From assembly GCA_017428035.1 (NCBI GenBank), contig JAFRRR010000058.1, forward strand, positions 1-64,000: a stretch of DNA of 64,000 nt. The letters run 5' to 3'. The stretch's first letter is position 1. Every line of letters begins with the position of its first letter. The notes under the pieces were generated by a model. The model made no database searches. It saw nothing but the letters and a program-made list of their open reading frames with translations, and was not told the origin of the DNA. Shown here piece after piece: positions 51,615-56,675 of the stretch. The DNA is from Bacteroidales bacterium. Lineage in GTDB: Bacteria > Bacteroidota > Bacteroidia > Bacteroidales > UBA932. The position numbers were made by a program, and so were the translations under genes.

Positions 51615-54233
51615 ATGATGACTTCTAAAGAGATCAGGCAGACTTTCCTGGATTTTTTCGCCTCCAAAGGCCACACAATTGTGCCGTCGGCGCCTATGGT
51701 TGTCAAGAACGACCCCACGCTGATGTTTACCAACGCCGGTATGAACCAGTTCAAAGAGTGGTTCCTGGGCAACGCGGCGCCCAAATATCCCCGGGCAGCC
51801 GACACCCAGAAGTGCCTTCGCGTGAGCGGCAAGCACAATGACCTGGAGGAGGTGGGCCACGACACCTATCACCACACAATGTTCGAGATGCTGGGCAACT
51901 GGAGTTTCGGCGACTATTTCAAGAAAGAGGCGATAGGCTGGGCCTGGGAGCTCCTGACCGAGGTTTACAAGCTGGACAAGAGCCGTCTCTACGCCACCGT
52001 TTTCGAGGGATACGCCCCCGACGGACTGGAGATGGACTCCGAGGCCAAGGGCTACTGGCAGCAGTATCTGCCCGACGACCACATCCTGCTTGGCAACAAG
52101 CACGACAATTTCTGGGAAATGGGCGACACCGGCCCCTGCGGCCCTTGCAGCGAGATCCATATTGACCTTCGCGACGAGGCCGAGATAGCCGCCAAGCCCG
52201 GCGCAGAGCTGGTGAACGAAGGCCACCCGCTGGTCATAGAGATATGGAACCTGGTGTTTATGCAGTACAACCGCAAGGCCAACGGCAGCCTGGAGAACCT
52301 GCCCGCCCGCCACATCGACACCGGTATGGGCTTCGAGCGCCTCTGTATGGCGCTCCAGGGCAAGAAGAGCAACTACGACACCGACGTATTCACAGGTATG
52401 ATTGCCGCCATCGCCGGCCTTTGCGGCAAGGAATATAACCAGAGCGAGCAGACGGCCGTGGCTATGCGCGTAATCGCCGACCACATCCGTGCCATCAGCT
52501 TCTCAATTGCCGACGGCCAGCTGCCCAGCAACAACAAGGCGGGTTATGTGATACGCCGCATCCTGCGCCGTGCAGTGCGCTACGGCTACACTTTCCTGGG
52601 GCTGAAAGAGCCGTTCCTGTGCCTGCTGGTTCCCACGCTGGTGGCCGAGATGGGCGACGCCTTCCCCGAGCTGAAAGCTCAGCAGACCCTGATCACCCGC
52701 GTCATCAAAGAAGAGGAAGAGGCCTTCCTGCGCACGCTGGACAAGGGTATCCGCCTTATGGACTCCATTATGGAGAAATCCAAGGCCACCAAGGTCATCA
52801 GCGGCGTGGACGCTTTCACCCTCTATGACACTTTCGGATTCCCCATTGACCTCAGCGAGCTGATTGCCCGCGAAAACGGCTACACTATAGACCTTGGCGA
52901 GTTCAACGTAGAGCTCGAGAAGCAGAAAAACCGCGCCCGCAACGCCACTGCCGTAGAGGCCGGTGACTGGGTGGAGCTGCTCCCCGGAACCGAGAGCGAG
53001 TTTGTGGGTTACGATATGCTTGAGGCAGATGCCCGCATAGTCAAATACCGCACTGTAAAGGCCAAGGGCAAAGAGCAGATACAGATTGTGCTGGACCGCA
53101 CCCCGTTCTATGCCGAGATGGGCGGCGAGGTCGGTGACACCGGCGAACTGGTCTCTGCAGAAGGCGAAAAGCTTGAGGTGCTCAACACCATCAAAGAGAA
53201 CGGCCTGGCCATCCACCTGGTGGACCGCCTGCCCGGCGACCCAGCAGCCGATTTCACCGCAAAGGTAGATGCAGAGCGCCGCACCAACATCGCCAACAAC
53301 CACACCGCGACCCACCTGCTGCACTTTGCACTGCGCAAGATACTGGGTACTCACGTAGAGCAGAAGGGCTCTTACGTGGGCGCCGCATCGTTCCGCTTCG
53401 ACTTCTCTCACTACGAGAAGGTCTCCAAAGAGACTCTGGACAAGGTAGAGCGTATGGTCAACCAGCTCATCCGCGCCAACGCCCCTCTGGAGGAGTTCCG
53501 CGACATCAGCATAGACGAGGCCCGCAGCCGCGGCGCAATGGCGCTGTTCGGCGAGAAATACGGCGACAGGGTCCGTATGATCAAGTTTGGTGATTCCACC
53601 GAACTTTGCGGCGGCTGCCACGCCTGCGCAACCGGCAACATCGGTTACTTCAGAATCCTTTCGGAGAGCGCAGTTGCAGCCGGTATCCGCCGCATCGAGG
53701 CCACCACCGGCATCAACGCAGAGCTTTCTGTGGATGTTATGGAAGATATCCTGGAGAGAGTCAAGGCTATGTTTGGCAACGCCGGCGATCCAGCCGCAGC
53801 CGTGGGCCGCATCATAGAAGAGAACGAGCAGTACAAGAAGGCCATGGAGGCCATTGCCAAAGAGAAGATGGCCGACATCAAGGCTTCTGTTGTTGCCAAT
53901 GCCAAGCAGGTGAACGGCATCAAACTGATGACCCTCACCGAGTGCCCTTCGATGGACTTTGCCAAGGGCATCGCCCACGACCTGCACGGAGAATGCAACT
54001 CTGCGGCATTTGTGGCAGCCTTTGAATCCGGCGACAAAAAGCCTTGCCTGGTGGTTATGTACACCGATGACCTGGTGGCTGCCGGCCGCGACGCCAGCGC
54101 CGATATACGCCAGGCCGCACAGTTCATACAGGGCGGCGGCGGTGGACAGAAGTTCCTCGCCACTGCCGGTGGCAAGAATGTTGCAGGTCTTTCCGAGGCT
54201 TTGAATAAACTCACCGAACTGGCTGCCAGATAA
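51615..54233 (+). CDS. alaS: Alanyl-tRNA synthetase
   Basis: 872 residues. Class II synthetase core ([54 protein letters not shown]), tRNA-binding middle, editing domain with metal ligands [11 protein letters not shown] and [10 protein letters not shown], and a C-terminal C-Ala domain ending in [16 protein letters not shown]. It charges tRNA-Ala and hydrolyses Ser or Gly mischarging. ATG 51615 or 51618 are both possible. No inserts. Confidence 0.97.
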
Positions 54234-54239
54234 TCTTCC

Positions 54240-56675
54240 GTGAAAAGGCTCGACAGGTACATACTCAATTCTTTCCTGGGACCGTTCATTTTGACGTTCT
54301 CCATAGTGCTGTTCATCCTTGTGATGCAGTTCCTGTGGCTTTACGTAGACGAATTGGTGGGAAAGGGTCTGTCCCTGGGAGTCATCTTCGAATTTATGGC
54401 CTGGGGCAGCGCCACCCTGCTGCCGCTGGTTCTGCCGCTGGCAACCCTGCTGGCCTCCATTATGACGCTGGGCGGTATGGGAGAGAACAACGAACTGCTG
54501 GCCATCAAGAGTGCCGGCATTTCGCTGGGCCGCGTGCTGCTGCCGCTGGTTTTCGTGGCGGTGGCCATCTCCATAGGCGCTTTCTTCATCTCCAACGACC
54601 TGATTCCGGTCGCCTACAAGAAGATTTATGCGCTCAGGGACGATATCGGCCGCACCAAAAAAGTCATCAAGATTCCCACCGGCATCTTCTACGACGGCAT
54701 CGACGGCTATGTGCTGCGCGTGGACCGTCACGACGAAGAGAACGAGGGCCTTATGCACGACATTCTGGTGTACGACCATACCCATTCGCAGGGCAACGTA
54801 AGTATGACTGTGGCCGACTCGGGCTGGATACACGTCTCCGACGACGGCTCTACCATTATCTTCAAGCTCTACAACGGCACTTCATATCAAGAAGAGAATA
54901 TTTTCAAGTCGCGCGACACGACCCTGAAGCAGGACATCATCACCTTTGACGACCAGACAATGATGGTGGCCCGCGAAGACTATTCTTTCGAGCGCAGCGA
55001 CGACGAGCGCTTTGGCAACGAGGTTATGGCCAAGGACTTGAAGACTCTTGTGCACGACCGCGACTCGCTGGCCGGCGAATTTGCCCAAGAGCGCCCTGCA
55101 ATTATCCGACGGTTTGCTTACGGCACCAACTTTAAGTATATCAACCAGATAGACACCACACTGGTGATGTACAAGGGGCTGGGCGAGGCGCCTGGCTGGA
55201 AGTTCAAGGCCTATAAAGATTCCGTGATGACGGCCCGCACCGCCCGCGACCTGGAGCTGGTGCAGCACGCCCTGGAGGGGCTGGAAGCCCAAAAGGAGGC
55301 CCTGGCGGACTACGACCGGAATGTATACCGCTATGTGTCCCCCATCCGCAAGATGACCATAGAGCAGTTCCGCAAGTTCACCCTTTCACTTGCCTGCCTG
55401 CTGTTCTTCTTTATCGGTGCGCCTCTGGGCAGCATCTTGCGCAAGGGCGGCCTGGGCACCCCTGTAATTGTGTCTGCGCTGATTTTTATGCTCTACTGGG
55501 TCATCGACATCAGCGGCAAGAAACTGGCCAGGGACGGCGCCATAACGCCGTTCGAAGGGGCCTTTATTTCCAGTGCGGTGCTGTTGCCTGTGGGTATGGC
55601 CCTGCTATGGGCCGCCGTGCGCGAAAAGACCTTCGATTTCAACTCCGTCAAGTTCTGGTTCAAGAGACTGTTCCAGAATATCGATAAGTTACTGCACAAG
55701 GCTCTCCGCTTCTTCAAAAAGAACCACGGCATCATCAAGGTGGTTTATATGGGTACGCCCGAGTTTGCAGTGGGCCCGCTCAAGGCGCTGCTGGAAAGCG
55801 AGTACCAGATTGCCGGAGTGGTCACCGTGCCCGACAAGCCAAGCGGCCGCGGCCTCAAGGTCAGCGAGAGCGCCGTGAAGCAGTTCGCCGTAGAGCACAA
55901 CCTGCCGCTGCTGCAGCCCGTCTCTTTGAAGAGCCCCGATTTCCTGGAGCAGCTGCGCGCCCTGGATGCCGATATGTTTATTGTGGTGGCCTTCCGTATG
56001 CTGCCCAAGGAGGTTTGGCAGATGCCGCGTCTGGGCACCTTCAACCTGCACGCTTCGCTGCTGCCGCGCTACCGCGGCGCCGCCCCCATCAACTGGGCCA
56101 TCATCAACGGCGAGAAGCAGACGGGCGTGACCACTTTCTTGATAGACGAGCAGATAGACACCGGCCGCATCCTGTTCAGCGAGCCTTGTATGATAGAGGA
56201 ATACGACACCTTTGGCAGCCTGTCAGAGAAGTTGTGCAAGATTGGCTCCGCCTTGGTGATCAAGACCGCCGACGCCCTTTCGCGCCGCCGTGCAAAGCCG
56301 CAGGAGCAGGACTCTTTCGCGCGCATTCTTCCCGCACCCAAGCTCACCAAGGAGACCTGTCATATCAACTGGAACAAAGAGGGCTACGAGATAGTCAACC
56401 TGGTGCGTGGCCTTGCCCCCGCCCCCGCCGCTTATGCTACGCTGGTAAATAATGGGGCGGAAACCACTATGAAGGTGTTTGAGGCCTACGTCTATATGGA
56501 CGACGAGCCCGCCGCACCCGGCACGGTGATTACCGACGGCAAGACCTATCTGGGTGTCGCCTGCGGCCACTACACCGTCCGCCTGCTGGATGTGCAGCTG
56601 GCCGGCAAGAAGCGTATGGATATCGCCGCCTTCCTGCGCGGCTGGCATCCCGGCGAAGATTGCAAGTTTGTTTAG
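54240..56675 (+). CDS. LptF/LptG-family permease fused to methionyl-tRNA formyltransferase
   Basis: 811 residues in one ORF from GTG 54240, 6 bp after alaS. Residues 1-470 are a full LptF/G permease of lipopolysaccharide export: three N-terminal helices (MKRLDRYILNSFLGPFILTF...), a periplasmic beta-jellyroll and three C-terminal helices (TLSLACLLFFFIGAPLGSIL). After a basic amphipathic linker (FKRLFQNIDKLLHKALRFF), Fmt begins at about 498 as IIKVVYMGTPEFAVG, the place where Fmt normally has its start Met. Fmt is complete: FNLHASLLPRYRGAAPI (catalytic Asn, His and folate loop) and the DTGRIL Asp, then the C-terminal tRNA domain. No stop separates the two. GTG 55740 or ATG 55749 could restart translation, but neither has a Shine-Dalgarno. 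Confidence 0.9.
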   Translation: MKRLDRYILNSFLGPFILTFSIVLFILVMQFLWLYVDELVGKGLSLGVIFEFMAWGSATLLPLVLPLATLLASIMTLGGMGENNELLAIKSAGISLGRVLLPLVFVAVAISIGAFFISNDLIPVAYKKIYALRDDIGRTKKVIKIPTGIFYDGIDGYVLRVDRHDEENEGLMHDILVYDHTHSQGNVSMTVADSGWIHVSDDGSTIIFKLYNGTSYQEENIFKSRDTTLKQDIITFDDQTMMVAREDYSFERSDDERFGNEVMAKDLKTLVHDRDSLAGEFAQERPAIIRRFAYGTNFKYINQIDTTLVMYKGLGEAPGWKFKAYKDSVMTARTARDLELVQHALEGLEAQKEALADYDRNVYRYVSPIRKMTIEQFRKFTLSLACLLFFFIGAPLGSILRKGGLGTPVIVSALIFMLYWVIDISGKKLARDGAITPFEGAFISSAVLLPVGMALLWAAVREKTFDFNSVKFWFKRLFQNIDKLLHKALRFFKKNHGIIKVVYMGTPEFAVGPLKALLESEYQIAGVVTVPDKPSGRGLKVSESAVKQFAVEHNLPLLQPVSLKSPDFLEQLRALDADMFIVVAFRMLPKEVWQMPRLGTFNLHASLLPRYRGAAPINWAIINGEKQTGVTTFLIDEQIDTGRILFSEPCMIEEYDTFGSLSEKLCKIGSALVIKTADALSRRRAKPQEQDSFARILPAPKLTKETCHINWNKEGYEIVNLVRGLAPAPAAYATLVNNGAETTMKVFEAYVYMDDEPAAPGTVITDGKTYLGVACGHYTVRLLDVQLAGKKRMDIAAFLRGWHPGEDCKFV

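Follow-up and report, generated by a model that had tools for sequence, protein, structure and literature searches.

A selected lptF-fmt gene fusion, shared by several genera of one Bacteroidales family, probably yields a membrane-anchored formyltransferase

Can a subunit of the lipopolysaccharide (LPS) exporter and the enzyme that formylates initiator tRNA be made as one protein? The question is raised by a single open reading frame in the 64,000-nucleotide stretch of Bacteroidales DNA analysed here (the window). The frame occupies 54240..56675 of the forward strand (stop codon included), begins with GTG, and encodes 811 amino acids. Pfam places LptF_LptG at residues 6–457, Formyl_trans_N at 501–674, and Formyl_trans_C at 701–801. 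The product thus consists of an LptF/LptG permease domain (residues 6–457; 54255..55610, +; PF03739), a basic amphipathic linker (residues 458–497; 55611..55730, +; amphipathic by its hydrophobic moment), and a complete methionyl-tRNA formyltransferase, Fmt (residues 498–811; 55731..56672, +). The junction between the permease and Fmt, IIKVVYMGTPEFAVG, contains no stop codon between the domains and no Met at the position where Fmt usually starts. The initial annotation had described the frame in these terms, as a complete permease, a basic linker, and a complete Fmt lacking both its Met and an intervening stop, and the Pfam and NCBIfam profiles bear this out, with the coordinates and the junction exact. 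In total, 56 separate genomes, belonging to nine genera of one family, carry the fused frame, which makes the fusion a family-level trait and not one odd gene. From sequence comparison, we consider the locus to be probably a genuine lptF-fmt fusion kept by selection, which would give one membrane-anchored bifunctional polypeptide.

The conserved upstream neighbour, alaS (alanyl-tRNA synthetase, 51615..54233, +), ends 6 nt from the fused gene. On the opposite strand, a 776-aa frame (52503-54833, -) spans most of alaS and enters lptF; it probably arises as a side effect of codon usage.

The permease half matches PF03739 along its full length (profile positions 1–352 of 353), with 223.8 bits against a gathering score of 27.9, and among solved structures, those of LptF and LptG align with the N-terminal part of the fused protein. 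With the equivalog profiles, the scores are 153 bits for TIGR04407 (LptF; cut-off 230) and 101 bits for TIGR04408 (LptG; also below its cut-off), so that by profile score the permease is nearer to LptF than to LptG, though under both cut-offs. A split relative from the same family also scores below the TIGR04407 cut-off (161 bits), therefore this cut-off is ill-suited to the lineage. Hydrophobic segments at either end of the permease domain would fit six membrane helices with a cytoplasmic C-terminus; the structure model is of low confidence. Only one other LptF/G-type gene is found in the genome, an LptG-like gene ~8 kb further on the same contig and on the opposite strand. The full-length Pfam match, the solved relatives, and the nearby LptG-like gene are thus shared with the LptB2FG permease, but the C-terminal tail, which ends in an ordinary LptF or LptG, runs on into an enzyme.

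The enzyme half scores 250.2 bits with the TIGR00460 fmt profile (equivalog cut-off 201.5) over residues 500–804, contains both PF00551 and PF02911, and has Fmt structures as its best solved relatives, aligned along the whole Fmt part. By alignment, the catalytic Asn/His/Asp correspond to N602 and H604 (56043..56051, +) and D640 (56157..56159, +), and the loop Arg (E. coli R42) to R537. These four residues and D532 are invariant in the fused genes wherever the positions are covered. The similarity to E. coli Fmt (1FMT) therefore extends over the whole length, both Pfam domains, the catalytic N/H/D, and the loop Arg. Fmt is usually soluble and unattached, whereas the enzyme in the window has no start codon of its own and is joined to a membrane permease. 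A formyltransferase domain within a larger polypeptide is also present in ArnA and other fusions of Fmt-like domains; ArnA, however, is a sugar-modifying enzyme, while the protein in the window is an Fmt equivalog with a membrane permease as its partner.

No second Fmt was found in the genome of the window (2.26 Mb in 136 contigs, 96.5% complete). A weaker match was rejected as Fmt, being under the cut-off and situated in a PurU-like frame. Peptide deformylase is present, with matches at G000:C87:50742-51221 and G000:C88:22477-22932, the second of which has a stop within the matched stretch. The genome also encodes an initiator-type tRNA-Met. Its anticodon stem contains three G-C pairs, and positions 1 and 72 are mismatched (C1:U72), features typical of an initiator tRNA that can be formylated.

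Frame 0 of the linker is free of stops in all 56 fused genes, while stops occur in the +1 frame of 32 genes and in the +2 frame of 25. It is basic in every fused gene (net charge +3 to +11), and in genera g1 and g16 its length is 41–43 residues, with one exception of 32. The dN/dS values of the linker in four groups of close relatives are 0.30, 0.22, 0.10, and 0.08 (0.05–0.28 for both domains), therefore amino-acid changes in the linker are selected against. Such conservation shows a fusion that is not in decay, but does not demonstrate a new function.

Is the full-length product the form in which Fmt is supplied? Ribosomes might also initiate within the gene and produce free Fmt beside the fusion or instead of it, as the initial annotation had suggested for GTG 55740 and ATG 55749 (55740..55751, +). 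The ATG stands behind an SD-like AAGGTGG, some relatives have an ATG 8–24 codons before the corresponding invariant Met (M504), and a dip in synonymous change at the junction, to 0.24 in a single 7-codon window, is seen in one of three groups; the other two show none. Neither codon, however, gains from comparison with relatives. Even members of the same genus do not all retain GTG 55740, none of the upstream starts is conserved, and in 21 of the 56 fused genes ATG, GTG, and TTG are all absent between reference residue 478 and M504. ATG 55749 encodes a Met of Fmt that never varies in the fused genes (56/56), and in the split relatives this Met lies downstream of the fmt start, internal to that gene too. 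Both candidates fall within Fmt strand beta-1 (the low-confidence model draws a strand at 500–505), and a start at ATG 55749 would presumably, judging from known Fmt structures, delete beta-1 of the N-terminal fold. The selection on the linker also acts at the level of the protein. We thus regard internal initiation as unlikely in general, but free Fmt is possible in some species, e.g. in those with an ATG at a plausible internal position (L073 and L078, g23).

A full-length protein could instead be made and then cut by a protease within the linker, freeing Fmt. A basic and variable linker would be accessible to such an enzyme, but its alignment contains no conserved cleavage motif, and cutting would leave unexplained why its length is nearly fixed in g1 and g16. 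We hold proteolytic release to be distinctly improbable, and both this route and internal initiation are less likely than a single anchored bifunctional polypeptide. Decay of the fusion, with one activity lost, is suggested only by the oddness of the pairing and is very improbable, given that both domains are complete and under the constraint described above, the catalytic residues are invariant, and the genome has no second Fmt.

The weakest alternative is a missed stop or another sequencing or assembly error at the junction, a doubt raised in the initial annotation and nourished by the 136-contig assembly, which can be dismissed with near certainty, as many independently assembled genomes share the fusion, in every member of the genus with the junction covered and in many other genera. 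In the survey of the genus (26 genomes), every contig that covers the junction gives one frame of ~800–820 aa; in G005 two contig ends interrupt the gene, with the pieces overlapping within Fmt, and in G022 the frame is broken only near the far end of Fmt. Beyond the genus, the search of the family gave at least 116 frames of at least 640 aa among the best 150 places listed, a list ranked by similarity to the window and thus leaning towards fused relatives. The gene is fused in genera g1, g16, g23, g17, g7, g6, and g4, and also in a single genome of g3 and a single one of g24, while fmt lies in a separate frame in the remaining genera of the family. For one genome alone, the single fused member of g24 (G082), an error may still be the explanation.

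Outside the family, no fused frame was found among the matches listed for 393 Bacteroidales genomes (387 of other families) or among those listed for a phylum sample of 395 genomes; both listings rank the best matches first, so that a fused frame should come at the top. The nearest outside case (G313, of another family) has the two genes 24 nt apart in the same frame, separated by two stops. A fused public record belongs to Candidatus Cacconaster equi, whose genus was placed by its authors in the GTDB family UBA932 (PMC8957277). The record falls within the fused family on both the AlaRS tree and the LptF + Fmt tree, and thus the family with the fusion is very probably GTDB UBA932.

How the two genes could have been joined is indicated by the split members of the family, in most of which the gene order is alaS, lptF, fmt. 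In three cases (L107, L108, and L110; g26 and g24) alaS is situated ~2 kb upstream of lptF and does not adjoin it. The split UBA932-like pairs have the same genes, order, and alaS neighbour as the fused gene, but in separate frames with a stop and a start of their own. Between the lptF stop and the fmt start there is either an overlap of up to 31 nt or a gap of a few to ~24 nt, and the two genes are nearly always in different frames; in g13, the last lptF codons and the first fmt codons share the same bases, read in two frames. For neighbours that overlap or lie so close, but in different frames, a small indel is enough to fuse them: one at the overlap would bring lptF and fmt into one frame, and both the lptF stop and the fmt start would be bypassed.

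Other irregularities are observed among the relatives. In L114 (G068, g3) lptF is in two frames in an assembly of low completeness, and its split state is less reliable. In the split genera g8, g9, and g21 (L112, L113, L115, and L116), the LptF-type permease carries a C-terminal extension of ~120–160 residues, which in L115, the only one scanned, contains no Pfam domain above the cut-off. Long frames in G044 and G062 (g20) suggest a similar extension of the permease.

The fused and split states require 3 changes on the AlaRS tree (~14 with shuffled labels), AlaRS being an independent marker, and 4 on the LptF + Fmt tree (~26 with shuffled labels). A single origin of all the fused genes is rejected on the AlaRS tree (p-AU 0.0009). 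There was either repeated fusion or a later return to separate genes in g13, g19, and part of g3, and the fused g24 genome, placed beside split relatives, reflects an independent fusion event or else a fault of that single assembly. As the state changed more than once, some lineages may have re-split, which would suit a fusion that is tolerated but not needed.

What would such a protein look like in the cell? For the anchored bifunctional polypeptide, we propose an LptF-type subunit embedded in the inner membrane; its C-terminal tail, on the cytoplasmic side, would continue through the basic linker (~30–45 residues) into the complete Fmt. The solved relatives of LptF and LptG have cytoplasmic termini, and thus Fmt would face the cytosol, where it would be able to meet Met-tRNA and 10-formyltetrahydrofolate. 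The proposal of the initial annotation that Fmt is tethered to the inner membrane is therefore supported, with the cytoplasmic face as its site, as an inference from the known topology of LptF. AlphaFold2, run on the fused protein with six sequences, gave a model of low confidence (mean pLDDT 43.7). The full-length protein is expected to be stable, to join the LptB2FG exporter, and to be active in both roles. As the fused gene is the only Fmt found, the formylation enzyme of the cell is probably membrane-anchored, and initiator tRNA would be formylated from the membrane. That the tethering is itself useful, with all tRNA formylation capacity at the LPS exporter linking translation initiation to envelope building or to synthesis at the membrane, we consider improbable; if true, it would explain why the fusion was kept and perhaps gained more than once.

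In the literature covered, which is partial, no published description of an lptF-fmt fusion was found, and annotation names based on one domain would conceal the other gene. In general, the locus suggests that a housekeeping enzyme of translation initiation may be covalently tied to a subunit of the LPS exporter in much of a gut family that is large and for the most part uncultured. The fusion would illustrate a route from overlapping genes of an operon to a fusion protein, and would offer a natural test of whether Fmt needs free diffusion.
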